Source of the DNA: Flagellimonas pacifica | GTDB lineage: Bacteria > Bacteroidota > Bacteroidia > Flavobacteriales > Flavobacteriaceae | Assembly (NCBI RefSeq): GCF_900215465.1 | Contig: NZ_OBEH01000003.1 | Coordinates: 310,001-374,000 of the forward strand | Direction of reading: 5' to 3' | Length of the DNA stretch: 64,000 nucleotides | Shown: positions 23,643-42,253 of the stretch, in pieces | Position numbering within the stretch: position 1 is the stretch's first letter | Layout of the letters: the number at the start of each line of letters is the position of its first letter | The notes under the pieces: generated by a model | Seen by the model: only the letters and a program-made list of their open reading frames with translations | Told to the model about the DNA's origin: nothing | Databases searched by the model: none | Position numbers and translations under genes: made by a program

Positions 23643-23684
23643 AAAGTCGTATAAACTACCGTTAAAAGAATAACTAAATTATTG

Positions 23685-23733
23685 AAAAGAAAGAATGCCC
23701 GAACAACCAACCCATAAATCGAATGTTTCGGGC
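23685..23733 (-). terminator. Terminator between the LamG gene and the sulfatase unit
   Basis: On the minus strand TTCGGGC-type arms (23727-23733 and 23697-23703) pair as GCCCGAA/TTCGGGC around a 23-base loop and are followed by a T-rich run (CATTCTTTCTTTTC). It divides the leftward cluster into GH109-SusCD-LamG and the sulfatase unit. Confidence 0.65.
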
Positions 23734-23747
23734 ACCTTCTTCTCAAG

Positions 23748-23767
23748 AACTAACTCAAACTAAACTT
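23748..23767 (-). repeat. TTTAGTTTGAGTTAG-type 3' untranslated element (copy C)
   Basis: Read on the minus strand, AAGTTTAGTTTGAGTTAGTT begins 14 bases after the stop of the LamG gene and precedes the terminator at 23685-23733. It repeats the word found after the SusD genes at 8121-8165 and 49996-50028. Confidence 0.6.
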
Positions 23768-23781
23768 ATTTTTTTACATGA

Positions 23782-25380: not shown

Positions 25381-27165
25381 TTACCATCCTGGGTTTTGTT
25401 CAATATTTGGGTTGAGCACCAGCTGATCTGCAGGTAAAGGGAAAAGGTAGTAATGGTCTGGAAATGCTGGTGGAGCAAGTGGGATTAATTGTACATACCC
25501 TTCAGGTGCATCGCCTTGAATTGGGATGTTCTGGGCATAATCGGCTTGGGTAATCCATCTACCTAATTTCACTTCTGTGGCATAATTCATCTTTTTCCAT
25601 CTTCTTAGATCATCCCTTCGAACACCTTCTCCCATCATTTCTACAGCTCTTTCCCGTCTAATTTCAAAAAGTACAGGATCTACCCCAGGGTCTCTGGTTG
25701 GATCAAAATCTGACGTGATCTGTGCAATGGTCATTGGTGCTACACCTCCACGTTGCCTCAGTTTATTGATGGTTATATCCGCCACGGATTGATTAAAATC
25801 TCCTACTTCAAATTTGGCTTCAGCATGTATGAGAAGAATCTCTCCCATTCTAAATAGGGGGTCATCGTTTAAATCCTGGCCTGAATTCCCTTCGTTATGT
25901 TCATTCCATATTTTCCAAAAACGATACCCGTTTCCGGTTTGGGTGGGAACAAGCTTGTCGAAATTGGGTACTTCTCCAGTAACTCTTTTTGACCAGTTAC
26001 GATCTGGTAATTGTTTGTTTGGGAACCCTCCGGTAATGGCCTCAAGAATTGGGAAAAATTCTTCATCCGCAGGATTTCCTGTAGATGTCCAATTCTGACT
26101 TCCATCCCCATTCACCTTATAGGGCGGTGGGCTCAAAATCAACAATCGATTGTCTCTATCTCTAAACTCCGCATAAAAATCCTTGTCCCCCTGAAATTGG
26201 GTGTTGGTCGGATTGGTTACTGGAAGTCCGTTTTTGGTTAAAAATTTATCAATTCCTTTTCGGGTAATATCATATTTGTTGTTTGTAGATCTTGTATTTG
26301 TAGATGTCCAATGTGTCAATTCGTCTATAACATAATGTTTGTAGAGCAATATTCCTTCTATAGGCCCAAGGTCTATACTGTTAAAAACGTGATCGTAATT
26401 AGGGTGAATATCAGGATATTTATCAATCAATTCCGCTGATGTCTGTATTGCTGCGTTCAAAAATTTGTCGTGGTCACTAAGCCCGTGATACTTACGCCAT
26501 GTACCTTCAAACAGCGCAAAGCGTGCCAAAAGCGCCTTGGCCACATCCGGATTAACGGTATTTGGGCCATCGCCATCTTCCTTAATAATTCCAATGGCTT
26601 CTTGTAAATCTCTTAATATATTATTTGCTACCAAGTCACGGGAATCCCGTGGGGCATATAGAACGTCGGTATCCGTATCGGTCAATTCATTTTCCAACCA
26701 GGTCACGCCTCCATATCTGTTTAAAAGATTAAAATATTGATGTGCCCTAAAAAAGAGGCCTATTCCACGCCAATGTGCAATCTCTTCTTCAGTCATTTCA
26801 GAGCCCGCAATTCGGTCCAACATGATATTGACCCTACGGATATTCTCATAAGAAATTCCGTATACGGTTCCTCCACTTTCAGCAGGTACATTAATGTTCT
26901 GTGCAATATATGGTCGTGATACGCTACTCCCTCCATTTTGCATTAAGTCTGCATCGAGGTCACGAGTGGCAACCCAAGAAAGTGCTCTGGGATATGCGTC
27001 AAAAAATTCATAGAAGCTCCATGCATAGGTGCGTACATTGTTATAGGTGCTAAATATTGTTGCTTCTGATAGCTCTTGTTGTGGAACAAGGTCTAGGTCA
27101 TCGTCACAACTAGAAGTTAGGACGGTGAAGCATATCAAAGTTAAAAGGTGTTTAAAATTTTTCAT
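25381..27165 (-). CDS. SusD/RagB-family outer-membrane glycan-binding lipoprotein
   Basis: 594 residues. Lipoprotein signal (VLTSSCDDDLDLVPQQ). SusD helices are recognisable (NNVRTYAWSFYEFFDAYP, FFRAHQYFNLLNRYGGV, DVAKALLARFALFEGTWRKY) and the C-terminal RagB part is intact (RMGEILLIHAEAKFEVGDFNQ, INKLRQRGG, EIRRERAVEMMGEGVRRDDLRRW, LNPNIEQNPGW). It partners the SusC encoded 11 bases upstream. The length is at the long end of the family. It is followed after 21 bases by the LamG surface protein. Confidence 0.95.
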   Translation of the reverse strand: MKNFKHLLTLICFTVLTSSCDDDLDLVPQQELSEATIFSTYNNVRTYAWSFYEFFDAYPRALSWVATRDLDADLMQNGGSSVSRPYIAQNINVPAESGGTVYGISYENIRRVNIMLDRIAGSEMTEEEIAHWRGIGLFFRAHQYFNLLNRYGGVTWLENELTDTDTDVLYAPRDSRDLVANNILRDLQEAIGIIKEDGDGPNTVNPDVAKALLARFALFEGTWRKYHGLSDHDKFLNAAIQTSAELIDKYPDIHPNYDHVFNSIDLGPIEGILLYKHYVIDELTHWTSTNTRSTNNKYDITRKGIDKFLTKNGLPVTNPTNTQFQGDKDFYAEFRDRDNRLLILSPPPYKVNGDGSQNWTSTGNPADEEFFPILEAITGGFPNKQLPDRNWSKRVTGEVPNFDKLVPTQTGNGYRFWKIWNEHNEGNSGQDLNDDPLFRMGEILLIHAEAKFEVGDFNQSVADITINKLRQRGGVAPMTIAQITSDFDPTRDPGVDPVLFEIRRERAVEMMGEGVRRDDLRRWKKMNYATEVKLGRWITQADYAQNIPIQGDAPEGYVQLIPLAPPAFPDHYYLFPLPADQLVLNPNIEQNPGW

Positions 27166-27176: not shown

Positions 27177-30100
27177 TTAGAATGATACATTAAGTCCTAC
27201 TGAATATTGAGCTAAAATGGGATACCTTCTAGCAATATTGGTGGTTGTCTGATCGGGATCTAACCCTCTTTGCAAATTGTCAAAAATAAAGGGGTTGTTT
27301 GCCGAGACAAACACACGTAATTTGTTTAATCTTAAACGTTCCAACAGGTTATCATTAAAGGAATAACCAAGAGTGATGTTCTGAACTCTAAGATAGCTTT
27401 CATCACTTAGGTATTTGGTCTGTACAAATCGACTTCTGTCATAGTTACTATCATTATTTCCAGTACTTGCATCTCCATAAATTCTTGGATAGAAAGCATC
27501 TTGATTATCAGGGGTCCAATAGTCCAATTGATGCGCGTAGATATGATCAAATACAGAGGGGTAGGGGAAAATCAAATCTACATCTTGACTTCTAGTATCT
27601 TCACCTACAGTTGTAAACCCTCTCCAACGATCACGTTTACCTACACCACTTAGTACAAAAGAAAGGTCAAAGCCTTTGTATGCCATATTGCCATTGACAC
27701 CAAATTGATACCTTCTTGTACTATTACCGATACGTTTACGGTCGCCTGGGCCTGTTTCTGGAATGACATTTCCATTTTCATCAAATTGAGGTTCTGCCGT
27801 TCCATTGCCATCGGTGATTTGGCCATCACCATTAAGATCTCTATATTTTATATCTCCAGGGTAGGGCACAGGAGCGTTCTCTGGAAAAGGGACCCCATCC
27901 TTTAATTCTCTATTGGGACCAGAAAGGTCGGCATTCAATGTACCTTCCACAAAATCATCTACCGTGTAATATCCATCGGTAACGTAGCCCCATATCTCAC
28001 CAATCTCTTTTCCTTCATAAAATGCGGCAGGATTAATTGATTTTTGAGCAGATTCAAAACGTGTAATTTTGGAATGGTTATCGAAGACGTTTACATTGAT
28101 GCCATAACTGAATTCTCCAATTTTATCGTTCCAGCCAATTTCTATGTCCCAACCTTTAGTTTCTAAATCTGCGTCATTTTGCAAAGGCGCTTCAGTACCT
28201 AAAATAGCGGGTAGTGGGAGCGCAGCCTTTAACATTCCAAGGGTTTCCCTGGTGTAAATGTCAAAAGATGTGCTCAAACGGTTTTTAAAGAAATTGGCAT
28301 CAATCCCCAAATTCTTTGTCACCACTTCTTCCCATGTAAAGGTATCACTTACCAATTGTGCAGGATTAAAGCTAATGAATCGTTGATCAGTACTAAGATT
28401 GATCCAGTTGGCTAAAAAATCTTCGTAACCGGGAATAGATGGATAGTACTCTTGTTGGTTATTGTCAGGTCTTCTGTATTCTTGGTTTCCAATTTTCCCC
28501 CAAGAAGCTCTTGGCTTTAAAAGGGAAATAAAATCTACATTTTCCATGAAAGGTTCTTCGCTAATGTCCCAGCCCACAGAAACTGAGGGCAACCAGGCAT
28601 ATCGGCTGCCTTCGGCAAATCTTGATGAACCATCGTAACGCAAATTGGCTTCAATAAAATAGCGATCAAGTAGTGTATAGTTCAATCTGCCAAAATATCC
28701 AACCACGGCCCAGTCATAAAAAGAATCGGTAATGGTAAAATTCTCGCCTTGGGCCAGATTAAAAGTAGGAGTATCTGGATCTATCAAATCATTCCTAAAT
28801 GCACTAAAAACATCTTGTTTTTCATCTTCTTTATTGAATCCCAATAGAAAATTGAAATTATGGTCTCCAAATGTCACATTATACTTGCCATAAATATTAA
28901 ATCCATTGTAAATCCTTGTGGTCTGGGTTTTTCGAAGACTAGAATTTCTTAGTGCATCTTCTTCAGAAACCGTTGGATTAAATCTAAACGTACTGTAATA
29001 CCGCTGTGCATTCCTAACGGCGACAGTATTAATGTATTTTTTCTCAAAAGTATATTCCCCAGTCAAGGAGAAATCCTTGAAAGGTTTCCATTCTAAGCGT
29101 TGGAACAATCTTATGTTGTCTTCGTCCCTTTTTGTAGGCACAGAAAAGCGAACAACATTTCCAGGGCTGTTGAAGGGCAGTACGTCTCCAGTTCCATCAT
29201 CAAAGAATCCGGTGGGATCATACATCCTCTGCTGTAAAGCCTGGTTGTATTGTGCATTGGGAACAGATTGGATACTGGAACGGAAAAATATATTGGATGA
29301 GGAGGTCAGTTGTGGAGTAATATCCGCATCAACCTGCGCATTGACATTATATTTTTTAAAGGAATCCTTATCGGTTACCATGACCCCATCTTCAAAGGCG
29401 TATCCTGTACTTAAACGATATCCTACTTTTTCACCTCCCCCGGAGACGGAAAAATTATGAATGGTGGAGTACCCAAAGTTCTTGATAAAGTCATCAATAA
29501 TGTCAGAGTCTGTCAAAGGATAATATTGACTGCTACTTTCTTCAAAGTGAATAGGGTATGTGGTATTGTTGATAGGGTCGCTTACCAGATTAAGCTGACC
29601 TAATTGGTTTGCATCATAAAGATCCAAAAGCTCAATCCACCTATCTACGTTTTGACCTGCAAAGTAAGCGTTTACACCAAAGGTGTCAAGAGATTCAGCA
29701 AATTGGCGAGTAGTGGCCTTTTCTGGTTGATCAACCGCGCGAGAAACACTGGTGGTAACATCATAGCTAAATGAAACTTTTTGATTTCTTCCTGCACTTT
29801 TTGTAGTAATCAATACCACACCAAATGCCGCCCGAGCACCATAGATTGATGAAGCTGCCGCATCTTTAAGTACGGAAATGGATTCAATATCTCTGGGGTT
29901 TAAATCCTCGATGTCACCTGGAACATTATTGATTAAAATCAATGGGGAACCACCATTTATGGAAGTAAATCCTCTAATGTTTATGGAGGTGCTTGTATCA
30001 CCAGGCTGTCCTGAACTTTGGACAATTTGAAGACCAGCGGCGGCACCTTGTAGTGCTTGCGTAGCATCTACAATAGGACGGTCGTTAATAATCTCGTCCA

Positions 30101-30482
30101 TTTGCACATATGAAGCCGCTCCGGTAACGTTTTCCCTCTTTTGGGTACCAAAACCAACCACGACCACCTCGTCCAATTGTGAGACATCTGGTGATAGGGA
30201 GACATTCACTGTGGTTTGCCCATTTAACGAAATCGTTTGCGAAAGGAAACCAATTGAACTTATTACCAATGAGGCGTTAGGGGGAACGGTTATTTCATAA
30301 TTTCCGTCAAAATCTGCGGCTACACCATTGGTAGTGCCTCCTTCTATGACGCTTGCGCCAGGAATGGGCATTCCAGTTTCAACATCGGTTACATTTCCAG
30401 TCACCTTGATGTTTTGGGCAAACAGCGAGCCACAAAACGCAAGTGATAATAGAAATACGAGTTTAGTTTTCAGTTTTTGCAT
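27177..30482 (-). CDS. SusC/RagA-type TonB-dependent transporter without STN domain
   Basis: 1101 residues. Signal peptide (LVFLLSLAFCGSLFAQ), then immediately the carboxypeptidase-regulatory-like domain (VTGNVTDVETGMPIPGASVIEGG), plug (DEVVVVGFGTQKRENVTGAAS, SSIYGARAAFGVVLITTKSAG) and barrel ending AQYSVGLNVSF. Unlike the SusC proteins at 3207 and 44724, it has no STN domain, so it should not signal through a FecR protein. This agrees with its neighbourhood: no sigma/anti-sigma pair, but a hybrid two-component regulator and a LacI-type site upstream. Forms a complex with the SusD encoded 11 bases downstream. Confidence 0.95.
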   Translation of the reverse strand: MQKLKTKLVFLLSLAFCGSLFAQNIKVTGNVTDVETGMPIPGASVIEGGTTNGVAADFDGNYEITVPPNASLVISSIGFLSQTISLNGQTTVNVSLSPDVSQLDEVVVVGFGTQKRENVTGAASYVQMDEIINDRPIVDATQALQGAAAGLQIVQSSGQPGDTSTSINIRGFTSINGGSPLILINNVPGDIEDLNPRDIESISVLKDAAASSIYGARAAFGVVLITTKSAGRNQKVSFSYDVTTSVSRAVDQPEKATTRQFAESLDTFGVNAYFAGQNVDRWIELLDLYDANQLGQLNLVSDPINNTTYPIHFEESSSQYYPLTDSDIIDDFIKNFGYSTIHNFSVSGGGEKVGYRLSTGYAFEDGVMVTDKDSFKKYNVNAQVDADITPQLTSSSNIFFRSSIQSVPNAQYNQALQQRMYDPTGFFDDGTGDVLPFNSPGNVVRFSVPTKRDEDNIRLFQRLEWKPFKDFSLTGEYTFEKKYINTVAVRNAQRYYSTFRFNPTVSEEDALRNSSLRKTQTTRIYNGFNIYGKYNVTFGDHNFNFLLGFNKEDEKQDVFSAFRNDLIDPDTPTFNLAQGENFTITDSFYDWAVVGYFGRLNYTLLDRYFIEANLRYDGSSRFAEGSRYAWLPSVSVGWDISEEPFMENVDFISLLKPRASWGKIGNQEYRRPDNNQQEYYPSIPGYEDFLANWINLSTDQRFISFNPAQLVSDTFTWEEVVTKNLGIDANFFKNRLSTSFDIYTRETLGMLKAALPLPAILGTEAPLQNDADLETKGWDIEIGWNDKIGEFSYGINVNVFDNHSKITRFESAQKSINPAAFYEGKEIGEIWGYVTDGYYTVDDFVEGTLNADLSGPNRELKDGVPFPENAPVPYPGDIKYRDLNGDGQITDGNGTAEPQFDENGNVIPETGPGDRKRIGNSTRRYQFGVNGNMAYKGFDLSFVLSGVGKRDRWRGFTTVGEDTRSQDVDLIFPYPSVFDHIYAHQLDYWTPDNQDAFYPRIYGDASTGNNDSNYDRSRFVQTKYLSDESYLRVQNITLGYSFNDNLLERLRLNKLRVFVSANNPFIFDNLQRGLDPDQTTTNIARRYPILAQYSVGLNVSF

Positions 30483-30543: not shown

Positions 30544-31902
30544 TTAATATGTGTCCTTAATCCAATTGTAAGGTTTTCTTTTTATCCAGTTTCCGCGAGT
30601 AAAATCTGGAAAATCCTGTGGTTCTCCGTTGTTTGCAATAGATTGCTCGGAAAGTGGGGTAATTGCACTCCAAGCGGCGGCATCATATGCATCCATGGGA
30701 GGGGCAATATTTTGTAGTGCCGATTGTACAAAGGCATTGATTACAAAGAAATCCATTCCACCGTGGCCAGCGCCTTTGGCATAAACACCATATTTCTGCC
30801 ATAAAGGATGATCATATTTTTCCAACCATTCTTTGGCTTCATCCCAACGATGTGGTTTGGACTTTCCTTCAATATAAATACGTCGGCCATCTACTTCCCA
30901 TAAACCTTTGGCTCCTTGTACACGGAACCCAAGTGAATATGGTCTAGGAAGATTACAATCATGGGTGATGACAATGGTTTCACCCATAGAAGTCTCAATA
31001 GTGCTTGTTATGACATCACCTTGTTTCCAGTTTAATTTTGCATTTGGATGTTCCTCCCCACCTTGTTTTACAATGTAATCTTTGAAACCAATGGCTTTGG
31101 AGGCATGCGAAGTAATAGAGGAAAAACGATTGCCTCTATTTATATTAGCCATTGCCGCTATAGGTCCAACGCCGTGGGTTGGATAAAAATCCCCATTTCT
31201 ATAAAGTGAATGTTGTGTACGCCACTTAGATTCGGAAATTCCCTTATCCCCGAATTCAGCTCCTTTTCCGTAGGCTGTTTTTCCATCATTAAAAAGTACA
31301 CCTCTAAGATCGTGTTGATATCCACATCTGTAATGTACCATTTCTCCAAAGACATTTTGTTTTACCATATTGAGTATAGCCAAAACATCTCTTCGGTAAT
31401 TTACATTTTCCAAAATCATTAAATGTGTCCCGGTCTGCTCGTGGGTATTTACCAAATCCCAACACTCTTCAAGCGTATTGGCGGCAGATACTTCCAACCC
31501 TGTATATTTTCCAGCGAGCATGGAATCTTTTGCCATACGCGTGTGCCATAGCCATGGTGTGGCTATTATTACAGCATCCAACTCCTTTAACTCAAGTAGA
31601 TTGCGATAATCATATTCATCTTTGCCAAAGGTTTTTGGCTTTCCCTTTCCTTTTTTGGTTATGATATCCAGAGCCAATCGTATTCTTGAATCGTCCACAT
31701 CGCAAATTGCTCCTACATTGACATCATCCCTTAGTAAAAGGTTGTTCAAATGATTGGTCCCACGCAAACCAACACCAATCAGTCCAACATTTAATTTGGT
31801 CGACAATTTGTCTTTTACCGCACCTAATGAAATACTTGGAGCAAGAGCCAAACCTGCCCCTGCTATTGCAGTTTTTTTAACAAAACTTCTTCTTGAGCTC
31901 AT
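30544..31902 (-). CDS. Gfo/Idh/MocA-type protein, GH109-like glycosidase
   Basis: 452 residues. Twin-arginine-like signal (SSRRSFVKKTAIAGAGLALAPS). Rossmann NAD-binding motif GLIGVGLRGTNHLNNLL at about 40-56, IICDVDD-type strand (GAICDVDDSR) and IIATPWLWHTRMAKDSMLAGK. The conserved C-terminal stretch GAGHGGMDFFVINAF and the HDLRG motif are as in GH109 enzymes, which cleave alpha-N-acetylgalactosaminides by an NAD-dependent elimination mechanism. Other Gfo/Idh/MocA functions cannot be excluded, but export and length fit GH109. It is the first gene of the leftward SusCD unit, 61 bases before susC, and is divergent from the hybrid regulator. Confidence 0.8.
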   Translation of the reverse strand: MSSRRSFVKKTAIAGAGLALAPSISLGAVKDKLSTKLNVGLIGVGLRGTNHLNNLLLRDDVNVGAICDVDDSRIRLALDIITKKGKGKPKTFGKDEYDYRNLLELKELDAVIIATPWLWHTRMAKDSMLAGKYTGLEVSAANTLEECWDLVNTHEQTGTHLMILENVNYRRDVLAILNMVKQNVFGEMVHYRCGYQHDLRGVLFNDGKTAYGKGAEFGDKGISESKWRTQHSLYRNGDFYPTHGVGPIAAMANINRGNRFSSITSHASKAIGFKDYIVKQGGEEHPNAKLNWKQGDVITSTIETSMGETIVITHDCNLPRPYSLGFRVQGAKGLWEVDGRRIYIEGKSKPHRWDEAKEWLEKYDHPLWQKYGVYAKGAGHGGMDFFVINAFVQSALQNIAPPMDAYDAAAWSAITPLSEQSIANNGEPQDFPDFTRGNWIKRKPYNWIKDTY

Positions 31903-32218
31903 AATTGGATTTTGAGATATTCTTTTATTAGTTCGATGTTAAATTTCCTCTCTCCAAATATTGGTATTGTGCTTTGCTCAAGGGGTATGTATTTTAGTCT
32001 AAAACCACCTCATTTTTCAGTTTTAGGTTCTTTTTAGACTGAAAATCCGTAATTTGAAGTGTATTTAAGGTTTAGCAAGCATTAAAATGTGTACGACAAC
32101 ATTGGTTGTTTACTTGATTTTAAAAGTTGTTGTTGGCTGAAAAAATGTAATTTGAATAAGATTTGTTAATTGGAACAAGTTTAACGGTTAGTTATGGTTC
32201 CAAAATATATTATGGAAA
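31903..32218. promoter_or_regulatory. Divergent control region between GH109/susCD unit and hybrid regulator
   Basis: 316 bases without a gene. It contains the LacI-type sequence at 32087-32103. It also has an imperfect inverted repeat, ATTTTAGTCTAAAA at 31991-32004 against TTTTTAGACTGAAAA at 32031-32045, that could serve another regulator. I could not pick out a convincing TAnnTTTG promoter element. Confidence 0.55.
32087..32103 (+). promoter_or_regulatory. Putative LacI-family operator
   Basis: ATGTGTACGACAACATT. It matches 40149-40165, upstream of the LacI gene, at 16 of 17 positions. The form TGT...CG...ACA with a central CG is what LacI-family proteins usually bind. It lies 185 bases upstream of GH109 and 116 bases upstream of the hybrid regulator. 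Confidence 0.6.
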
Positions 32219-35200
32219 ATGACAGAAGAGGGCAGGGAAGTTGGAATAATAAAAAAAATGAAGATGCTTTTTATGCATTGTTTGTTCATGCCTAAAAAAA
32301 GGATTAACCCACAAGCTGGTCTTTTTTACTTTTTGATTGTTTTTTCATGCTTCCAAATGGTCAAAAGTCAAGAACTCCAAAACTTCATTCATTTCGAAAA
32401 GGGATTTCATCCATCCACAACAATTGAAAATGACAGTTTGGGGAATGTACTAATTTCTTCTACTAAAGGTATATATAAGTATAATGGGTATGATTTTGAC
32501 TTTAAGTCGTATACCACCATTTTTGGCTATGAGTTTATCAACAAAAGAAGAGTTTATTTTAAAAAGGACGGAAGGAATAACTATTGGTTGGCCACTTATA
32601 ATGGTGAACTTACTATGTTGGGTAAAAATGGGAGGTATACCCACTTTAGAGATAGTTTGTCTAAAGGGGAAACATCTTTTAAAATCAACGCTATAATACC
32701 TCATGGCGATTTGGTTTGGTTTGGTTCTGAAGAGGGTTCCTTGTATAAATATGATTATTCCAAGTCCCAGATATCCCGGGTAGCCACATTGCCCAATATT
32801 CAAAATCATTCCCAAGCAATCAATAATCTGGCAGTTACAGACTCAAATCAAATATGGATAAGTACCAAAGGAGGTAGGGTTTATGGTTTTAAAGAGACAA
32901 TAAAACAACTTCAAGAGCTAAAAATGCCTTTTGATGATAAAATTTTGCATTCACTACTTTTAGTAGCAGACAAAAAAGGCAAGTTATGGATAGCTTCTGA
33001 ACTTTACGGACTTTATCAGTATGAGCCAAGTTCTCAAAAACTAGAACCATTCCACCTTTCAGAGCATCAAGTAAAATCCAGTGGCGGCATTCCAGCATTT
33101 TATGTTTTGTTTTGTGATAAAAGCGGGGATATTTGGGCAGGTACGGATGGTGAGGGATTGTTTAAAATTGATAAAGACAACTATAAGGTTTCCCGATTTA
33201 GACATCAAGACAATAATCGGTTTTCCATTAGCAACAATAGCGTAACTGGCATCTCTGAGGATAACCATGGCAATCTTTGGATAGTTTATAAAAAAGGGTC
33301 GATTGACATTCTGCCCAATTACAACAGCAGTGTACAATATTTTACAGGATCAGAGAACAATGTTCCTTCGCCAATACTTTGTATGCTTAAAGCTACTGAT
33401 GGTTCACTTTGGATTGGAACTGATGGAAAAGGGCTGAATAGGGTATTCCCCAATGGAAAAGGTGTGCAATATGGAAATAAAACAAGCAATTCTTCAATTT
33501 TTAAAGGGAGATATATCCAACGTATTGTTGAAGCTTCAAATAATAATATTTGGATTGCAACTTATAAAAATGGACTTTTTGTTTACAATCCAAGGCTTAA
33601 TAGGTTTAAAAGGGTTAAGATTTCTGGAATTTCAGAAAAGTCTGCTGCGGATGTTCGCTTTCTTTATAAGGATACAAAGAACCGTATATGGGCAACAACC
33701 ACAGAAGGCATTCACATTTTTAATGAAAACCAGAAGCAACTGGCTTTTTTCAACTATCGTTCTTATGGGGTGTCTGGAGTAATATCAGAAAGTATATATG
33801 AAACTAAGAAAGGTTCAATATGGGTTGGTGTGAACCGCGGAGGATTGTTCAAGTTTGAAGAGAATGAGGATTCCATTCAGAATTCGGCGTTCAGAAAAGT
33901 TGAATATTATCAAAAAACACATAGTGAGGATACCAATAATTATGATCCAGCCTTTATGGTCAATGATGATGAAGATAACCTTTGGATAGGGACACTATCT
34001 GGCTCATTAATGTATTTGAACACAAAAGATTATTCCTATAAATCATTCTTGAATCATGACAGTTTTAAAGATTTGACTATTTGTGCAATGTTTTTTGATG
34101 ACTATAATAAATTATGGTTAAGTAGCAGAAATGGACTGCATCATTATGATGTGGAAAAGGATTCCCTAAGTTCTTATTACAGCATAGATGGTTTGCAAAG
34201 TGACAGGTTTACTCGGAAAAGCTCTTTTAAGGGAAAGGATGGGATGCTCTATTTTGGTGGGGATGATGGTGTGAGTGCGTTTTATCCACATTTGATGAAA
34301 AAAAATGAACTTATTCCCAACTTGGCCATTAGTCAAATTGATATTTTGAACAAGCCAGCTTGGGATTTGGTTCCTGATCAGATTGAGAAAGGGGTTGAGT
34401 ATGTTGAATCTTTAAATTTGAAATCGAACCAATCGTCGTTCTCTTTTCAATTTGCGGCTATTGGAGATGTCCTCAAACCAGAATACCATTATGCATACAG
34501 GTTAAGAGGTTTTAACGAAGAATGGATAACTCCGAGAGGGGAGCGGGTAGCTACCTATACCAATATTCCTCCAGGCAAATATATTTTTGAGGTAAAAGCT
34601 GGTACCCAAAAGGGCATTTGGAATATTCCTACCAAGCAAATTTCAATTTTTATTAGTCCGCCTTGGTGGTCAGGTAATATAGCATATTCAGCATATGTAT
34701 TGTTCACAGGGTTGTTAATTCTTGGAATTGTTTTTTGGGTAAGACTCAGGAATAAATTGCATAGGGAAGAGTTTCAATTTAATAAGGAAAAGGAACTTTA
34801 TGCCTTAAAGATGAATTTCTTTGCCAAAATGTCACATGAAATTCAAACACCTTTAACACTGATTACCGGTCCAATTGATGATATGTTACATCGTGCTACA
34901 TCCAATGGCAATCAATTATTGCGTCAAAGGCTTTCATTGATCAAAAACAATGCGCAAAGACTTTCCAGAATTTCAAAAGGTTTAATGACTGTAAGAGATA
35001 GGGAATTGGATAAGTTGCGCGTTTATGCTTTGAGAAAGAATATTGTGGATGATCTTAGGAAAATAGCCAGTTCATTTTCAGAACAAGCTAGATTTAAGGA
35101 TATTGATTTTGTTCAGGACTATCCTAAAGAAGAAGTATTTCTATGGTATGATGCGGAAAAATTGGAACATATTTTTTACAATTTATTGTCCAATGCTTTT

Positions 35201-36415
35201 AAGTTTACCCCTCGCGGGGGACAAATTGTGTTAAGGTTAAAAGAAGGTAAAAAAAGACTTAAAATCTGTGTTATTGATTCTGGTCCTGGAATACCACAAG
35301 AGGAACGTGAACATATTTTTGAAATGTTCTACCAATCTGAAATTGGAAAAAATGTAAAAGGATTGGGTATTGGATTGGCGCTTACCAAAGAGTTGGTAGA
35401 CCTTCATCATGGTAAGATAAAAGTTTCCTCATCAGGTGAGGGAACCTGCTTTACTGTGAGCTTAAAAACCGGCAATATTTTCTCAAAGGAGGAAAAAGGA
35501 ACCAACATGGGTGTAAACTCATTGAATATGCCATCATTGGCAGAAATAGATTTGCTCAAAGAATTGGATATTGTTTATGAGGATAGGATAGATAAACGCG
35601 CTACTATTCTTATAGTTGAGGACAATGTGGATATGCAAATATTTCTTAGAGATTTGTTTTATGAAAAATATTATGTGCAAATAGCGGACAATGGCGAGGA
35701 AGGATTGAAATTGGCTAAAAAGAAACTGCCCGATCTTATTGTTAGTGATATAATGATGCCTTCTATGGATGGAATAACAATGAGTAAAATTTTGATAAAA
35801 TCAAAAGCTACATCGCATATTCCCATTGTATTGTTAACAGCTAAAGATGCTGCCAAAACTAAATTGACAGGGTTGCAAACTGGCGCTTTGGCATATATTC
35901 AGAAACCTTTTAACCCCAATGAACTATTGGTTAAGGTGAACAATATCCTTGACAATAAAGAAAAAACTATCAACAAGCATAAAACAGATGTAATCAGCGA
36001 CCCTCAAATGGAAAAATTCAAATCCAAGGATGATCTGTTCATGGAAAGATTGGTGAACGAACTGAACAATAAGTTGGAAAGCTCGGAATTTAAATTGGAA
36101 GATTTGGCAAGTAGTATGCGCATGAGCTATTCTGTAATTTACAGGAGGTGTCAGGAAATTACCGGTAAAACCCTGATTGATTTTCACAAGACTCTAAAAT
36201 TGAAGCATGCAGCTTTACTTTTCTTGGAAAATGGTTATAATGTTTCGGAAGCTGGATATATGGTTGGCTATAAAAATTCAAAGTATTTCACGAAGTGCTT
36301 TAAAGACGAATTTGGAAAACCCCCAATGGCCATTAAAAATGAATGCAAGGAAATTGGAATAGCACAATTGATAAAAAAATACAATATTGTGGCATTACAA
36401 TCTATAGAATCATAG
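32219..36415 (+). CDS. Hybrid two-component system regulator (sensor kinase-receiver-AraC)
   Basis: 1398 residues. A signal anchor (LFYFLIVFSCFQMV) is followed by a periplasmic beta-propeller sensor with many reg_prop repeats (such as IWIGTDGKGLNRV, IWIATYKNGLFVY, LWIGTLSGSLMYL) and a Y_Y_Y domain (YAYRLRGFNEEWITPRG, IPPGKYIFEVKAG). A membrane helix is at about 822-841. The kinase part has phospho-acceptor His873 in MSHEIQTPL (Gln replaces the usual Arg), N-box NLLSNAFKFT, DSGPGIP and GLGIGLALTKEL. The receiver carries Asp1177 in IVSDIMMPSMDG. The C-terminal AraC-type DNA-binding domain (about 1290-1398) ends in FKDEFGKPP. It senses an oligosaccharide and activates nearby genes, most likely the divergent GH109/SusCD unit. 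A start at 32255 is also possible. Confidence 0.95.
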   Translation: MTEEGREVGIIKKMKMLFMHCLFMPKKRINPQAGLFYFLIVFSCFQMVKSQELQNFIHFEKGFHPSTTIENDSLGNVLISSTKGIYKYNGYDFDFKSYTTIFGYEFINKRRVYFKKDGRNNYWLATYNGELTMLGKNGRYTHFRDSLSKGETSFKINAIIPHGDLVWFGSEEGSLYKYDYSKSQISRVATLPNIQNHSQAINNLAVTDSNQIWISTKGGRVYGFKETIKQLQELKMPFDDKILHSLLLVADKKGKLWIASELYGLYQYEPSSQKLEPFHLSEHQVKSSGGIPAFYVLFCDKSGDIWAGTDGEGLFKIDKDNYKVSRFRHQDNNRFSISNNSVTGISEDNHGNLWIVYKKGSIDILPNYNSSVQYFTGSENNVPSPILCMLKATDGSLWIGTDGKGLNRVFPNGKGVQYGNKTSNSSIFKGRYIQRIVEASNNNIWIATYKNGLFVYNPRLNRFKRVKISGISEKSAADVRFLYKDTKNRIWATTTEGIHIFNENQKQLAFFNYRSYGVSGVISESIYETKKGSIWVGVNRGGLFKFEENEDSIQNSAFRKVEYYQKTHSEDTNNYDPAFMVNDDEDNLWIGTLSGSLMYLNTKDYSYKSFLNHDSFKDLTICAMFFDDYNKLWLSSRNGLHHYDVEKDSLSSYYSIDGLQSDRFTRKSSFKGKDGMLYFGGDDGVSAFYPHLMKKNELIPNLAISQIDILNKPAWDLVPDQIEKGVEYVESLNLKSNQSSFSFQFAAIGDVLKPEYHYAYRLRGFNEEWITPRGERVATYTNIPPGKYIFEVKAGTQKGIWNIPTKQISIFISPPWWSGNIAYSAYVLFTGLLILGIVFWVRLRNKLHREEFQFNKEKELYALKMNFFAKMSHEIQTPLTLITGPIDDMLHRATSNGNQLLRQRLSLIKNNAQRLSRISKGLMTVRDRELDKLRVYALRKNIVDDLRKIASSFSEQARFKDIDFVQDYPKEEVFLWYDAEKLEHIFYNLLSNAFKFTPRGGQIVLRLKEGKKRLKICVIDSGPGIPQEEREHIFEMFYQSEIGKNVKGLGIGLALTKELVDLHHGKIKVSSSGEGTCFTVSLKTGNIFSKEEKGTNMGVNSLNMPSLAEIDLLKELDIVYEDRIDKRATILIVEDNVDMQIFLRDLFYEKYYVQIADNGEEGLKLAKKKLPDLIVSDIMMPSMDGITMSKILIKSKATSHIPIVLLTAKDAAKTKLTGLQTGALAYIQKPFNPNELLVKVNNILDNKEKTINKHKTDVISDPQMEKFKSKDDLFMERLVNELNNKLESSEFKLEDLASSMRMSYSVIYRRCQEITGKTLIDFHKTLKLKHAALLFLENGYNVSEAGYMVGYKNSKYFTKCFKDEFGKPPMAIKNECKEIGIAQLIKKYNIVALQSIES

Positions 36416-36447
36416 ATTTTAATCTTTAGATTACATTTTCAACTTCT

Positions 36448-39066
36448 CTATACAATGATTCTTATAATTTTGGTTTGTTTCTCACGAGCTTTCAGATTGT
36501 CATGGACCTTTTTGTAGCCAAGCTCTGGAATGTTGATTTCAATTTGATATTTCCCTTTTTCAAAAACTTTTGGAGTATATCCGCTGGTTTTGGTTCTTAT
36601 GGCATAGACCAATTCTCCATCCATATCAAATATTTTTAGAACGGGGTTAAAATTTCCGGTCCATTCTATTTTAGGAAGCCAAGCAACAGCTTTTCTGGGA
36701 TAATTATCTTCTTGAGTTACAGTAATTGGCCATTTTGGGTACTGACTGTTTGGTATGGTTGGGTCAACAAATCTGGGCCAACATTCGGTCTTGATGGTTC
36801 GCTTCTTTTTGTTAAATGTTACCATGCCATAACCAACCGCCCTATTGTGTAAAACTTTTGGCTCTTTACCTGTGTCATGTGGATTTGCAACAGCATGTAC
36901 GGTCATCTTGTTGCCAAATCCATCCACATGTTGTCCCAAAAACGCAGGATTCTCATAAGTATGTTGACTACTATCTACATTTGGCCAAAATCTTCTTGGC
37001 CAAATGTTATTAATTGCGGGTCCTGCAAAGGCATATCCACTATCACTATGTTCTCCAAGACCATATTGTATAAAACTGGCCAGATGTTGATCTCCTGCTA
37101 TATGGAACGCAAAGGCTTTTCTAATCGTTTTTACGGCTAGATCTCGCCCTATCGCGGGCCATCCATTAGAATCCATATCTACAGTAGGGTGGTCTCCTTT
37201 TATGTACTCACCTTTTTTAGGGATAGGAAGAGAAGGTATGACCGCTCCTGTCTTTGCGCCTTCCGGTAGGGTGGCCAAAGTTGCAAAATTGGTTTGGGAA
37301 AGCACTACCTTCATCTGGGCATTATTGCTCCAATCCAAAGTCCATTCGTCAAGGAATTCATGTTGTCTCTTTCCTAAAAGGTCTGCATCAAGATTACGAT
37401 ATTCTTTAATGTCAAAATCATCATTCATGATCCAGCCATTATTGACTTGGGCACTTTTAGGAAGCACATTTTTTGGAGCTGATTTGAATTTTCTATCCTC
37501 GAGAATGGCAAAACTGATTCCAGCATAGTTCCAATGGGTATAGTAAACACCTATACCTTGTTTTACTGGTGATGCATTGAACGCATCAGGTAAATGGCCC
37601 GTTTGAGTTCGTTGTACCATATTTACCCATTTAGCTGGCATTTTATATCCTCCACTATCTTGGGCGAAGGCACCAAAACCTTTTGATGTGTCCGCTTTTT
37701 CTCCTTCTTCTCCCCAAATATTACCGTGATATACATCATGGTCATCTGGGATAATGGCACACGGTTTATGTCTATATAGATCACGATAGGACCAACCAAA
37801 CATGTACCATTTTCTTAGGTAATCCAAGCACATTTTGTCAAATTCTCCTTTAAACATAGCTCCAAAACCTCCGGTAGCTTCATAAAACTGATCACCAAGA
37901 AATAGAATGATATCTGGATTTAGTTTGGAAACATTTTCCGGAATGTCGGCGTCGGGAAAACCATAATGGAAATTACAACTGAAAACTGCTGTCCTGATTT
38001 CATTTTTATCATGAGGTTCTTTGGTTATAGTTCCTTCATAATGGTAGGTTTCCATTTTGTGTTCCAAAGGAATGTCTACACTAATTCTAAAAGGAAGATC
38101 CTGCTCCATTTCAAAATCTGTAAATGAAAATATAACCGACCGACCTTCATAATCCATATTCCCAGATTGAAGAGTTTTCCACTTGCCAATGTCATCCTTC
38201 ACTTGAAAGTGTATGGAGTGACCATTTATCTCTTCTATTGGAGCCATCTGTGCTGTAAGCTTAAGCTTACCCTTATTCAATGTATATTGGGTAAAACAAA
38301 TGGGACCAAAAAAATGATTTTCCTTATAGGTCAAATCCTCTGAAGCAATGTGCCAATTGGAAAATGCCGCACTTGGCACTGCTGAATTCTGTTCTTTGTT
38401 GAGTTTAAAGTCTGACAGCAACGAGAAATTACCCGTAAGTTGGGCATTAGACAATGCTATGGATTCCTTTTTATAAAACAGGGCATCGTCCTGAGGATTT
38501 GTCAATGAGACGGTAACTGTATAAGAATCAATACTGGGAATCGCTTCAACTATAAGTCCAAATTGTTTTGGAATAGTGTTCAAAGAAGTATCAAAAACCT
38601 GATTGCCAACTATGAGTTTTCCTTTTGGGGTCAATCCAATTGGAGTTCCTTTTCCAAATACTGCGGCCGATCTATAATCCTCATTTGGTCCGGTCACTCC
38701 CAAACGAACTCCTAGACATCCCTCGTCAATATTTTCAATATTTGGATTAAGTACATCAATTGCGACGGAAGTGATAAAACCAACCAATTTTTCAGGTTTT
38801 TGGATCGGTAGCAAATGAAGACTTCTGTTTTTATCAGTAATATCGCAAATAACCTTGCCGTCTTTTAAAAGCCAATCTTGTAGGCGATTGCCCCAATATT
38901 CAGGTCCCACCCATTTCATATTTGGCCAATTATGCCAATTACTGTTGAAACTTAACCCGTTTTCGTAAGGCCAAGACCTAAAGGTACTATTGGCCAATAC
39001 TGAAGGAGAAATGCAAGGAGCAACCGCTCCCATTAATATGGTTTTTAGGTAGTTTCTTCTTTTCAT
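36448..39066 (-). CDS. PhoD-like metallophosphatase, exported
   Basis: 872 residues. N-terminal export signal (KRRNYLKTILMGAVAPCISPSVLA) resembling a Tat signal. Residues about 30-330 form a beta-sandwich region (VGPEYWGNRLQDWLLKDGK) seen in the long Bacteroidota PhoD-like proteins. The phosphatase domain at about 350-780 has AVFSCNFHYG, DIILFLGDQFYE, IIPDDHDVYHGNIWG and HIAGDQHLASF, the metal and active-site blocks of the PhoD family. It would hydrolyse phosphodiester or phosphomonoester bonds outside the cytoplasm. It shares an operon with the LacI gene 10 bases upstream on the coding strand. This suggests induction by a sugar and a role on phosphorylated or related glycans. The real substrate is unknown. 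Confidence 0.85.
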   Translation of the reverse strand: MKRRNYLKTILMGAVAPCISPSVLANSTFRSWPYENGLSFNSNWHNWPNMKWVGPEYWGNRLQDWLLKDGKVICDITDKNRSLHLLPIQKPEKLVGFITSVAIDVLNPNIENIDEGCLGVRLGVTGPNEDYRSAAVFGKGTPIGLTPKGKLIVGNQVFDTSLNTIPKQFGLIVEAIPSIDSYTVTVSLTNPQDDALFYKKESIALSNAQLTGNFSLLSDFKLNKEQNSAVPSAAFSNWHIASEDLTYKENHFFGPICFTQYTLNKGKLKLTAQMAPIEEINGHSIHFQVKDDIGKWKTLQSGNMDYEGRSVIFSFTDFEMEQDLPFRISVDIPLEHKMETYHYEGTITKEPHDKNEIRTAVFSCNFHYGFPDADIPENVSKLNPDIILFLGDQFYEATGGFGAMFKGEFDKMCLDYLRKWYMFGWSYRDLYRHKPCAIIPDDHDVYHGNIWGEEGEKADTSKGFGAFAQDSGGYKMPAKWVNMVQRTQTGHLPDAFNASPVKQGIGVYYTHWNYAGISFAILEDRKFKSAPKNVLPKSAQVNNGWIMNDDFDIKEYRNLDADLLGKRQHEFLDEWTLDWSNNAQMKVVLSQTNFATLATLPEGAKTGAVIPSLPIPKKGEYIKGDHPTVDMDSNGWPAIGRDLAVKTIRKAFAFHIAGDQHLASFIQYGLGEHSDSGYAFAGPAINNIWPRRFWPNVDSSQHTYENPAFLGQHVDGFGNKMTVHAVANPHDTGKEPKVLHNRAVGYGMVTFNKKKRTIKTECWPRFVDPTIPNSQYPKWPITVTQEDNYPRKAVAWLPKIEWTGNFNPVLKIFDMDGELVYAIRTKTSGYTPKVFEKGKYQIEINIPELGYKKVHDNLKAREKQTKIIRIIV

Positions 39067-39076
39067 TTGGAGTTTT

Positions 39077-40114
39077 TCAGATTAGATAACTGTCAACATT
39101 TTCTGAATTAACAATATCAATGGGTAATAACTGTTTTTTTGGGATTTCCTTTCCAAAAATCAAAGTCTCGATTAACCCTCTTAATCCAAGAGATGCCTGT
39201 GTTTTAGGACTTTGATGGATAAGAAAATCTATTTCACCAGTCTTTAGGCAAGAGACGTTCCTTGGAAGTAGATCATAGCCAACAATGCTACATTTTTTGT
39301 TCTCTTTTTTTAATGCTTTTACTATTTCATATGCTTTGGAGGTTGTTACAAAAAAAGCATCCATAGTATCGAATTGCGTCACAAAATTTGGGAATTTGAC
39401 CTCAAATTCATTGCTGTTTAAGGTCAATGTTTGAATTTGAAAAGAACCAAAGTCTTTAAAAAAGGAAATGAAGCCCTGTTCTTTTTGTTTCATATGGACT
39501 GCGTTATTGAATGCTTCATCAATATGTACAATTGCAATTTTTGAGTCTGGTTTTATTAAACTATGAATAAGTTTTGCTCCCACACGTCCACTGGAATATA
39601 AATCTTGCCCGGTGTGTTGATCTATAAGGTCGTTAGAAAGGCTGCTGTTAAATGTGGCAGATAAGATTTGTTTTTCACCAAGTTTTTTTAACAGGGCGTT
39701 ACTTTCCATTTCAAACAGCGGAACGAAGAGCAAGGCATTTAAATTTTCGGTTTGAATTAATTGTTCTCCAGTTTTTGAGAATGAACTAGGTTCAGATGGG
39801 TCATAACAATGCGTTTCTATTTCAAGGTCAAATGCACTGAACTCTTCAATTGTTTCATTTATACCTTCCATGCATCTTTTCCAATAAGGATCCATTTCAG
39901 GATCTGGGAGTAGTACTTTGATTGAATAGATGGTATTGTTTTTTAATGTACGCGCAATAGGGTTAGGTTTGTAATTCAGGTTGTTAAGTGCATCGGTGAC
40001 GGCTTTCAAAGCTTTTTCTGATACCTTGCCTCTTTTGTGAAGTACCCTGTCCACTGTACCTATAGATACGCCTGCGGCTTGTGCAATATCTTTAATAGTG
40101 TGCTTTTTCTTCAT
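39077..40114 (-). CDS. LacI-family transcriptional regulator
   Basis: 345 residues from the ATG at 40114 (MKKKHTIKDIAQAAGVSIGTVDRVLHKRGKVS), which puts the helix-turn-helix right at the N-terminus as usual. A longer frame from 40213 would add 33 residues and was rejected. The hinge region NLNYKPNPIARTLKNN is typical, followed by a periplasmic-binding-protein-like sugar sensor (DPYWKRCMEGINETIEE, IVHIDEAFNN, CSIVGYDLLPRN). It probably represses until a sugar is bound. Two matching candidate operators are visible: 40149-40165, just upstream of its own start, and 32087-32103. It is divergent from the kinase/nucleotidyltransferase pair and is followed by the PhoD-like gene. Confidence 0.93.
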   Translation of the reverse strand: MKKKHTIKDIAQAAGVSIGTVDRVLHKRGKVSEKALKAVTDALNNLNYKPNPIARTLKNNTIYSIKVLLPDPEMDPYWKRCMEGINETIEEFSAFDLEIETHCYDPSEPSSFSKTGEQLIQTENLNALLFVPLFEMESNALLKKLGEKQILSATFNSSLSNDLIDQHTGQDLYSSGRVGAKLIHSLIKPDSKIAIVHIDEAFNNAVHMKQKEQGFISFFKDFGSFQIQTLTLNSNEFEVKFPNFVTQFDTMDAFFVTTSKAYEIVKALKKENKKCSIVGYDLLPRNVSCLKTGEIDFLIHQSPKTQASLGLRGLIETLIFGKEIPKKQLLPIDIVNSENVDSYLI

Positions 40115-40148
40115 TTCATTAGCAAGATATAAAAAAGATACAGAGTTT

Positions 40149-40165
40149 ATGTGTACGATAACATT
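40149..40165 (+). promoter_or_regulatory. Putative LacI-family operator in the lacI-kinase divergent region
   Basis: ATGTGTACGATAACATT, 35 bases upstream of the LacI ATG. A TATCTTTT on the minus strand at 40133-40140 could be the -7 element of the LacI gene, so the site would overlap the -33 region and allow autorepression. A related inverted sequence, AAAAATGTTACGTA at 40216-40229, equals the reverse complement of this site's right part with one base missing. Confidence 0.6.
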
Positions 40166-40266: not shown

Positions 40267-41367
40267 TTGAAGTCAGAATTTACCAAAGAAAGAATAGTTG
40301 CACAAGCGCCTGGAAGAACCTGTTTGTTTGGTGATCATCAGGACTATTTAGGGCTTCCGGTAATTGCATGCGCCATTGACCGTCATATTAAGCTTGTAGC
40401 TACGTTAAATTCAGCCCGTAAACTGGTACTGAACAAACCGGACATCAATGAAAAAAGAATCATTGATATTGATGAGGAAATAAAGTACGTTTCAAAGGGA
40501 GATCATTTATTGGCAGCACTTAAAATTCTTCAGGAATATGAGTGCATTCCTAATAGTGGTTATGACATTACTATCTCTGGTAACGTAGCAATAAACGCGG
40601 GCATTTCCAGTTCAAGTGCCGTGGTTTTGGCATGGATCCAATTTTTAACGGAAGCTTTTGGGTGCAATGCCCCAGTAAGCAGAGAGTTGATTTCTCAAAT
40701 TGCTTATGAGGCTGAAGTGGCATTTCATGGAGCTCCGGGAGGTAAAATGGATCAATATGCAATAGGATTGGGGAATATTATCTATTTGGAAACTGGTGAT
40801 GCGTTGTCTTATGAAATGATAGAAAAACCATTACAGGGACTTATTGTTGCGGAATCTGGGATACCTAAGCAAACTACAGGTGTTTTAAGAGAGCTTAAAG
40901 AAAATGCTCTTTTGGCTATTCATAAAGTAAAAGAAAGAGTCCCAACATTTGAAGTGGGCAATATAGACGTTACGGATCTACCAAAATACCTTAATTATGT
41001 TCCAGATGACCTAAAAATCTACTTGGAGGCTGCTGTAACAAATCATGATATCACCAAACGGGCTCTAGTAGAGTTTAGAATGTCCGAACTTGATTTAGAA
41101 CATATTGGTGCTTTGATGAATGAACATCATCGTATTCTTAAAGACTATTTACATATCACGGTACCTAAAATAGATGATATGATCAATGGAGCTGTAAACG
41201 CTGGTGCTCTTGGGGCAAAAATTGTTGGATCAGGAAGAGGAGGTAGTATTGTTGTTTTGGCCAAGGACGGTGAACAGCAATTAGTTGTAGATGCACTTAT
41301 GAAAGCTGGGGCACGGGATGCCTATCCTGTTAACGTGGATAAAGGAGTTAGAATAATTGAACCTTAA
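40267..41367 (+). CDS. GHMP-family sugar kinase (galactokinase-like)
   Basis: 366 residues. The three GHMP motifs are present: APGRTCLFGDHQDYLG near the N-terminus (substrate-binding, as in galactokinase APGRVNLIGEHTDY), INAGISSSSAVVLAW (ATP-binding), and GSGRGGSIVVLA near the C-terminus. GAPGGKMDQYAIGLG is also conserved. It would phosphorylate the anomeric hydroxyl of a free sugar to a sugar 1-phosphate. The nucleotidyltransferase encoded 7 bases downstream would then make the nucleotide sugar, so the two form a salvage pathway. The start is TTG at 40267: an in-frame stop at 40255-40257 blocks any upstream ATG. Which sugar is used cannot be read from the motifs. Confidence 0.88.
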   Translation: MKSEFTKERIVAQAPGRTCLFGDHQDYLGLPVIACAIDRHIKLVATLNSARKLVLNKPDINEKRIIDIDEEIKYVSKGDHLLAALKILQEYECIPNSGYDITISGNVAINAGISSSSAVVLAWIQFLTEAFGCNAPVSRELISQIAYEAEVAFHGAPGGKMDQYAIGLGNIIYLETGDALSYEMIEKPLQGLIVAESGIPKQTTGVLRELKENALLAIHKVKERVPTFEVGNIDVTDLPKYLNYVPDDLKIYLEAAVTNHDITKRALVEFRMSELDLEHIGALMNEHHRILKDYLHITVPKIDDMINGAVNAGALGAKIVGSGRGGSIVVLAKDGEQQLVVDALMKAGARDAYPVNVDKGVRIIEP

Positions 41368-41374
41368 TAAAAAG

Positions 41375-42253
41375 ATGAGCAAACATAAAAATTTAATCAT
41401 ACTGGCGGGTGGAGCTTCGTCCAGAATGAAAAGGCCGGAGACAAGTTCAGAAGGACTTACCCAGGACGAAATTAACCAGGCCAATCAGCGTAGTAAGGGT
41501 TTAATTACAGTAGGAGCGGAGGGAAGGCCTATGATGGACTATGTTTTGTACAATGCAAAAAAAGCGGGGTATAGTCATATTTATATTGTGATAGGAGAAA
41601 ATGGAGAGCTGTTTCGAGAATATTATGGAAACGGAAGTAATAACTCTTTCCATGGCCTTAGCATTTCATTTGCCGTACAATATATTCCTAAGGGTAGAAA
41701 AAAACCATTCGGAACTGCCGATGCATTGTATCAAGCAGTTGAACAATTCCCAGAGCTTAATAATGATTATTATTCTGTATGTAATAGTGATAACCTTTAT
41801 TCTGTGGAAGCTCTTTCAGCCTTGAGAAATACCAATGTTCCCAATGCATTTATTGGTTATGACCGGGATGCTATGGATTTTCCTTCAGAACGCATTTCCA
41901 GATTTGCACTTGTTAAGGTGGATAAAGAAGGTTATTTACTGGACATTATTGAAAAACCTTCTGAAAACGAGGTAGAAGAGTATAGAGATTCTGATGGAAA
42001 GCTTAGGGTGAGTATGAACGCCTTTAAATTTGATGGACGTAAAATGTACCAATATTTAAAGGATTGTCCAATACATCCAGAACGAAACGAAAAAGAATTG
42101 CCAACTGCCCTGCTCAATATGCTCAAAGAGTATCCAAAAACTGCCATTGGAATTCCATTTTCTGAGCATGTTCCAGATTTAACCGCCAAAGAGGATATTG
42201 TTGAAGTAAAGAAATACTTAAGTTCAAAATATGCGCAATTGGATTGGGATTAA
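41375..42253 (+). CDS. Sugar-phosphate nucleotidyltransferase
   Basis: 292 residues from the ATG at 41375 (MSKHKNLIILAGGASSRMKR). A TTG at 41357 would overlap the kinase stop and adds nothing conserved. The N-terminal nucleotide-binding signature LAGGASSRM is followed, after an unusual insertion of about 25 residues (RPETSSEGLTQDEINQANQR), by SKGLITVG, which corresponds to the PK.L.P. segment. YSVCNSDNLYS is the metal-binding part and LLDIIEKPSE is typical of NDP-sugar pyrophosphorylases. With the kinase it should convert a free sugar to an NDP-sugar. The nucleotide (UTP, GTP or CTP) and sugar are not determined. Confidence 0.87.
   Translation: MSKHKNLIILAGGASSRMKRPETSSEGLTQDEINQANQRSKGLITVGAEGRPMMDYVLYNAKKAGYSHIYIVIGENGELFREYYGNGSNNSFHGLSISFAVQYIPKGRKKPFGTADALYQAVEQFPELNNDYYSVCNSDNLYSVEALSALRNTNVPNAFIGYDRDAMDFPSERISRFALVKVDKEGYLLDIIEKPSENEVEEYRDSDGKLRVSMNAFKFDGRKMYQYLKDCPIHPERNEKELPTALLNMLKEYPKTAIGIPFSEHVPDLTAKEDIVEVKKYLSSKYAQLDWD

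Follow-up and report, generated by a model that had tools for sequence, protein, structure and literature searches.

Two LacI-type operator sites and a predicted LacI regulon reaching into a GH109-SusCD unit of Flagellimonas pacifica

Does a single sugar-responsive LacI-family repressor control both a pair of sugar-activation genes and, 8 kb away, a SusCD glycan-uptake unit that lies beside a regulator of its own, a hybrid two-component system (HTCS) protein? The question is raised by a 64,000-nucleotide stretch of Flagellimonas pacifica DNA (contig NZ_OBEH01000003.1, positions 310,001 to 374,000; referred to as the window), in which two nearly identical 17-mers, at 32087-32103 and 40149-40165, were originally predicted to be LacI-type operators. 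The two words do agree at 16 of 17 bases, with a single base difference, and both lie in divergent intergenic regions, one between the GH109 and HTCS genes and the other between lacI and a GHMP kinase gene. They have the proposed TGT...CG...ACA form, which can be refined from 17 bp to a conserved core of 14 bp, the palindrome TGTNNNC/GNNNACA, and one of them (40150-40163) stands, as had been claimed, upstream of the lacI gene itself, whose ATG is at 40114. With a probability of roughly 0.85, we consider both sites to be operators of the LacI protein encoded at 39077-40114, which would act as a repressor released by a sugar effector; the best reading is a local autoregulated LacI regulon that would reach into the HTCS/SusCD unit. 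The features concerned are as follows.

32088..32101, + strand: predicted LacI-type operator TGTGTACGACAACA between the GH109 and HTCS genes (matrix match, conserved in relatives)
40150..40163, + strand: predicted LacI-type operator TGTGTACGATAACA between lacI and the divergent kinase gene (matrix match, conserved in F. hymeniacidonis)
39077..40114, - strand: LacI-family regulator, 345 aa (Pfam LacI and Peripla_BP_4)
32219..36415, + strand: hybrid two-component regulator HTCS (Pfam Reg_prop, Y_Y_Y, HisKA, HATPase, receiver and AraC-type helix-turn-helix)
30544..31902, - strand: GH109-family protein (Pfam Glyco_hydro_109_C; PDB 2ixa, alpha-N-acetylgalactosaminidase, 1.9e-149)
40267..41367, + strand: GHMP sugar kinase, galactokinase-like (Pfam; best PDB match a galactokinase, 5e-24)

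Rarity and matrix ranking of the sites

By the statistics of the window alone the match is modest and would not have rejected chance: allowing up to 3 mismatches yields 3 matches where 0.55 would be expected, and a count of 3 is attained in 5 of 100 shuffles. The significance of the sites comes instead from their rarity in the genome, their ranking by a matrix from other species and their conservation in relatives. The word TGTGTACGAYAACA is not randomly common, having only 3 copies in the 4.44 Mb genome, namely the two window sites and one before genes for GH20, GH16 and GH5-like proteins; when as many as 2 mismatches are allowed, the window word occurs at 5 places, compared with 1 in the control. 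A matrix built from 38 sites of other species, with the F. pacifica genome excluded, gives 23.4 bits for the 40150 site and 20.4 bits for the 32088 site in a scan of the 64-kb window, where the next best score is 3.8; any site of at least 20.4 bits appears in 2 of 200 first-order Markov resamples. This test is not fully independent, because the training sites were chosen by a pattern partly shaped by the window sites and include the orthologous sites of two relatives, F. hymeniacidonis (G009) and G085.

Further matches in the genome were considered as operators and rejected. Those at C5:795926 and C13:151463, with 2 mismatches, are both inside open reading frames (ORFs), as is the match at C8:447012 (TGTTTACGTACACA). 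Three species have the latter word close to the beginning of an ORF in a comparable position (L138:9012, L132:7854, L133:8113). It was taken as coding because it is shared by ORFs of like length and position in G085 and G077, and it is probably conserved coding sequence, with an intragenic operator as the alternative.

Conservation of the sites and their match to a LacI subtype

Conservation in relatives that keep the LacI gene, which the original prediction had called for, is found. The best ortholog of the window LacI, at 78% identity, belongs to F. hymeniacidonis, in which both places carry the pair TGTGTACGATAACA and TGTTATCGTACACA, 22 bp apart, where the window holds a single site per place; one pair lies upstream of lacI (L039:9948/9970) and the other between the HTCS and GH109 genes (L039:18105/18127). 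In G085 a site is likewise present at each kind of place, with the window's own variant, TGTTGTCGTACACA, between the HTCS (78%) and GH109 (89%) genes at L128:13199, and TGTGTACGTTAACA upstream of lacI (57%), 16-17 kb from the HTCS/GH109 site in the same cluster. Relative to the GH109 ATG, the nearer site begins at position -199 in the window, at -200 in G085 and at -202 in F. hymeniacidonis, and in a three-way alignment the partner site of F. hymeniacidonis corresponds to a 24-column gap in the window and in G085.

The regulator itself belongs to its family by sequence, with an N-terminal helix-turn-helix (HTH; Pfam PF00356, 3.5e-15; VSIGTVDRV), an effector domain resembling periplasmic binding proteins (Pfam PF13407, 2.3e-22; PDB 3gbv, 4.5e-57 with an alignment profile) and, in front of its own gene, a palindromic operator of even length with CG at its centre (40150-40163). 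In an alignment of 27 homologs the ATG at 40114 fits better as its start than the mechanically called TTG at 40213. LacI relatives at E <= 1e-60 are present in 21 of 71 congeneric genomes. The Ile18 subtype, defined by isoleucine at HTH position 18 and at least 49% identity, comprises 18 loci including that of the window. A strict site is present upstream of lacI in 17 of these; the 18th, a paralog in the window genome, has two sites that are each one base off. The six Lys18 loci of the genus all have 2-3 sites of the TGTTTTCGAACACA kind.

This paralogous LacI (G000:C7:160912-161940; L042:9412-10440; 57% identity) is encoded beside a GHMP kinase and a nucleotidyltransferase gene of its own. 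Its operators, CGTTAACGATAACA and CGTTATCGTACACA, are 23 bp apart and have C instead of T as first base, a difference that perhaps separates the two repressors.

A scan of genome contigs with a single LacI protein as query gave no match, and loci from outside the genus were taken with an alignment query as the best 80 of 581 relatives. The covariation set of 101 loci combines the window with 26 stretches from the genus and 74 of those 80 (6 same-genome loci were dropped), and has Ile at residue 18 in 36, Lys in 59 and Arg in 6. A TGTNNNCGNNNACA site is located within 260 bases upstream in 19 of the 36 Ile, 43 of the 59 Lys and 3 of the 6 Arg loci, and none is found in 36 of the 101. Among the half-sites of Ile18 loci, 39 of 50 have A at position 6; among those of Lys18 loci, 158 of 164 have T there. 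All 45 neighbouring site pairs are spaced by 21, 22 or 23 bp (6, 13 and 26, respectively). These counts come from related loci and are not independent events. Residue 18 of LacI thus covaries with the half-site, which is indirect support for specific operator binding.

Across the 71 congeneric genomes the strict motif TGTGTACGWNMACA, partly designed on the genomes tested, is present in all 16 with an Ile18 LacI and in 14 of the 55 others (Fisher p 4.5e-8); within the 16 it has 47 strand matches (40 sites), compared with 4 in the reversed control. A less circular test with the window word TGTGTACGAYAACA, leaving out its own genome, finds it in 9 of 15 Ile18 genomes and in 2 of the 55 others (p 3.5e-6), and both exceptions, in genomes free of this LacI subtype, are inside ORFs. 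The 9 genomes have 13 such sites, 11 of them in no ORF of at least 100 aa; the remaining two lie in a probable 5' over-extension of a GH20 gene (L131) and in a 104-aa ORF (L127). GH109 genes (E <= 1e-100) follow the regulator as well, being found in 18 of 21 LacI-positive and 5 of 50 LacI-negative genomes (p 1e-9; the species are related, and these co-occurrence p values overstate independence).

Predicted targets, mechanism and alternatives

The genes and the candidate regulatory block around the two operators are listed below.

27177..30482, - strand: SusC-like TonB-dependent transporter (Pfam)
25381..27165, - strand: SusD-like lipoprotein (Pfam)
15684..25359, - strand: rest of the presumed operon, encoding a LamG/PKD protein, three sulfatases, an F5/8 type C protein and a DUF3472 protein (Pfam)
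31992..32010, - strand: conserved block with TTTAGACTAAAA, candidate HTCS site (alignment; -101 from the GH109 ATG)
36448..39066, - strand: PhoD-like phosphatase, 872 aa (Pfam match barely past the cut-off; 10 bases downstream of lacI)
41357..42253, + strand: sugar-1-phosphate nucleotidyltransferase-like protein (Pfam NTP_transferase; weak match to glucose-1-phosphate adenylyltransferases)

The HTCS protein, for which 32258 is a possible alternative start, combines a sensor propeller, a histidine kinase, a receiver and an AraC-type HTH on one chain. GH109 alpha-N-acetylgalactosaminidases are NAD-dependent enzymes. The GH109 protein belongs to this family by sequence, with a nearly full-length match to PDB 2ixa, and the same activity is predicted for it. 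An adjacent SusC/SusD pair with glycan-degrading genes marks the region as a polysaccharide utilization locus (PUL); most of the remaining genes of the presumed operon are also found beside SusD in G085 (L084). With 8 candidates scored per genome, HTCS relatives at E <= 1e-300 amount to at least 9 matches in at least 8 genomes, of which at least 8 are divergent from GH109. One of these divergent units (43%, 71%) lies in the window genome itself at G000:C8:272464-278264, ~62 kb away on the same contig, and has no LacI operator.

The conserved block at -101 is shared by the three HTCS/GH109 units that bear the operator, in the form CTTAGACTAAAA in F. hymeniacidonis and G085, and no copy was found in the 450 bases preceding any of the 23 remaining GH109 genes that were checked. 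The copy in the window is the only exact one in the genome, and TTTTAGTCTAARACCACCT, sought genome-wide while allowing 3 mismatches, has 3 matches compared with 13 in the control, showing no excess. The block is a candidate binding site of the HTCS; a search for a direct repeat of the Bacteroides HTCS kind gave nothing clear.

Candidate targets are also present elsewhere in the genome and the genus. The third TGTGTACGAYAACA copy, at C10:90222 on another contig (TGTTATCGTACACA), precedes the GH20, GH16 and GH5-like genes, and the same site is found before GH20 in G031, G085 and G077; nothing similar was found within 1.5 kb of GH20 in the LacI-negative genomes G087 and G030. In G010, G063 and G064 site pairs stand directly before SusC-SusD-GH109 genes (domains checked in G064), and the stretches fetched from these genomes contain nothing that matches the window HTCS; in G092 a site lies between a sulfatase gene and GH109. 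Two further observations concern these loci. A conserved protein of ~940 aa, 76-80% identical to that of the window genome, adjoins the site-bearing GH20 in four species (L037:5347-8169, L129:6599-9421, L131:6488-9310, L127:9468-12281), and a Pfam scan of two copies gave no match. In G010 the SusC gene that follows the operator pair is split into two ORFs (L123:3305-6532) where G063 and G064 have a single ORF, reflecting either a true break or a sequencing error.

Because GH109, GH20 and sulfatases are encoded among the predicted targets, the glycan is best read as containing amino sugars and is probably sulfated; the kinase would then act on N-acetylgalactosamine (GalNAc) or a like sugar. The kinase and nucleotidyltransferase genes adjoin lacI in 16 of the 18 Ile18 loci and are absent from the G009:C1 and G067 stretches, and their pairing would fit a nucleotide-sugar pathway better than simple catabolism. 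The same pair occurs in a number of Flavobacterium loci. Co-control of the PhoD-like gene, which had also been predicted, has one basis, its position 10 bases after lacI in the window and in F. hymeniacidonis, and this adjacency fails in G085; the gene stays next to the HTCS gene in both relatives (82% in G085). A sequence search of the PDB with its product gave no relative at E <= 0.01. Shortly after the nucleotidyltransferase gene, at 42547-49996, is a unit of extracytoplasmic function (ECF) sigma factor, FecR-type anti-sigma factor, SusC and SusD, so that three types of regulator (HTCS, LacI and ECF) are encoded within 11 kb.

In the mechanism we propose, a LacI dimer lacking its sugar or sugar-phosphate effector would bind the site before its own gene and hold down both the lacI-phoD-like genes and the divergent kinase-nucleotidyltransferase pair, while LacI at the HTCS/GH109 site would hold down the HTCS gene, the GH109-SusCD-sulfatase operon, or both. 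Once the cell takes up an amino sugar freed from the glycan, LacI would let go, and the HTCS, activated by a periplasmic oligosaccharide, could drive the SusCD operon from a separate box of its own, closer to GH109. What the sequences show is the sites themselves, with their rarity, their conservation, their co-occurrence with the LacI subtype and their covariation with its recognition residue; we infer binding, the effector, repression rather than activation, and the order from LacI to HTCS. An extension of this scheme is a two-signal gate, in which LacI would control the supply of HTCS according to intracellular sugar, the HTCS would activate SusCD according to periplasmic oligosaccharide, and the GH20-GH16-GH5 genes would run on the same repressor; we offer this gate tentatively, at somewhat less than even odds.

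Several observations weigh against LacI control of these genes from the two sites. Promoter boxes of the consensus TANNTTTG could not be confidently placed, and there is no clear box for the HTCS gene. The centre of the HTCS/GH109 operator, 192 bases from the GH109 ATG, is far away for simple promoter blocking; the partner site seen in F. hymeniacidonis is missing there, and that upstream of the window lacI is degraded. Genome-wide, the loosest motif, TGTKNWCGWNMACA, is at the level of chance, with 5 sites and 5 in the reversed control. The GH20-GH16-GH5 operator is present in 4 of 4 LacI-positive and 0 of 2 LacI-negative genomes scored (G029, where the GH20 match begins at a contig end, was left unscored), a split that is not significant by itself (p 0.067). 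The operator occurs in 3 of 3 divergent HTCS/GH109 units with lacI in the cluster and in 0 of 5 others (p 0.018), a split confounded with relatedness, the three being the closest HTCS orthologs. The operator-free units are those of G071 and G087, which lack this LacI, those of G068 and G077, and the second unit of the window's contig; since the last three are without the site in genomes that do have an Ile18 LacI, the split follows linkage and kinship and not the presence of LacI alone.

These points bear differently on the alternatives. That the 16/17 match is a chance likeness of unrelated sequences fits its unremarkable standing in the window and the chance frequency of the loosest motif, but sites conserved by position across species, the co-occurrence of motif and regulator and the covariation of residue and base make coincidence extremely improbable, and it was rejected on the conservation and co-occurrence. 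A different regulator for the two sites is conceivable, since the C7 paralog has the same recognition residue and nearly the same operators and also adjoins a GHMP kinase and a nucleotidyltransferase gene, and could share or own the window sites. We think it unlikely that this paralog, or both repressors together, serve them in place of the window LacI as sole regulator: the window word stands before the window lacI itself, the local pairing of LacI and operator is kept in F. hymeniacidonis, the paralog's own sites start with C and not T, and in G085, where the HTCS/GH109 site persists, just one LacI reaches E <= 1e-60, its gene lying in that cluster.

Assignment of the sites to the window LacI leaves two ways in which the HTCS/GH109 site might act. 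It could control the HTCS promoter only, as a cascade in which GH109-SusCD would respond solely through the HTCS; this version is quite possible, although we hold it to be a little under an even chance. The operator centre is closer to the HTCS ATG (124 bases) than to that of GH109, and all three units have the separate block at -101 that may be an HTCS site. However, the spacing between site and GH109 varies by no more than 3 bases among three species, compared with alignment gaps of 24 and 25 columns towards the HTCS gene. This suggests that the site acts on GH109, and the site pairs directly before SusC-SusD-GH109 in G010, G063 and G064 indicate that direct SusCD control seems to occur. Rarity and conservation support the earlier proposal that one repressor would co-control sugar activation and the glycan unit, through the HTCS gene, GH109/SusCD or both.

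Relation to known systems and implications

In the portions of the literature considered here, LacI-family regulators are described as binding even palindromes with central CG, as frequently autoregulating locally and as having tandem sites with a spacing that peaks at 22 bp (PMC4052901), and Bacteroides LacI regulons (UxaR, UxuR, KdgR, UxmR) are described for which Table 2 lists uronate pathways (PMC3878776). The predicted regulon resembles such local sugar regulons (PMC4052901, PMC3878776) in its central-CG palindrome, its own-gene site, the tandem sites, which are 22 bp apart in F. hymeniacidonis, and the presumed control of neighbouring catabolic genes, and differs from the Bacteroides uronate regulons of PMC3878776 in that the predicted targets include an HTCS/SusCD uptake unit. 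In PMC4052901 Bacteroides is represented by one group, and the word Flavobacter is absent from the main text of that paper.

PUL control in Bacteroidota is usually described as running through SusR-like regulators, HTCSs or ECF sigma/anti-sigma pairs, and Bacteroides HTCS sites are direct repeats with ~21 bp between the halves, as given in the relevant parts of PMC3878776. As in HTCS-controlled PULs described in parts of PMC3878776 and PMC9067506, SusC/SusD, glycoside hydrolase and sulfatase genes lie beside the HTCS gene; unlike in those, the HTCS/GH109 intergenic region holds a LacI-type operator and with it probably an added intracellular signal. The view that LacI control over an HTCS is uncommon agrees with the open-access literature searched (subscription papers and RegPrecise being outside its scope), in which no HTCS gene with a LacI operator was found, including in the portions covered of PMC3878776, PMC4052901, PMC12125979, PMC9067506, PMC10766802 and PMC11253607; the same literature gave nothing on LacI with GalNAc in flavobacteria. 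Operator type and tandem spacing are already known for the LacI family, and the unusual part is likely the layering of LacI over an HTCS, which is possibly new.

If true, a conserved LacI operator in the promoter region of an HTCS/SusCD unit would add a signal from inside the cell to PUL control, and under the two-signal gate full expression would need both an oligosaccharide outside and a usable monosaccharide inside. The regulon would also tie the GHMP kinase/nucleotidyltransferase cassette to amino-sugar glycans, and the operator motif together with the residue-18 rule makes it searchable across the Flavobacteriaceae.

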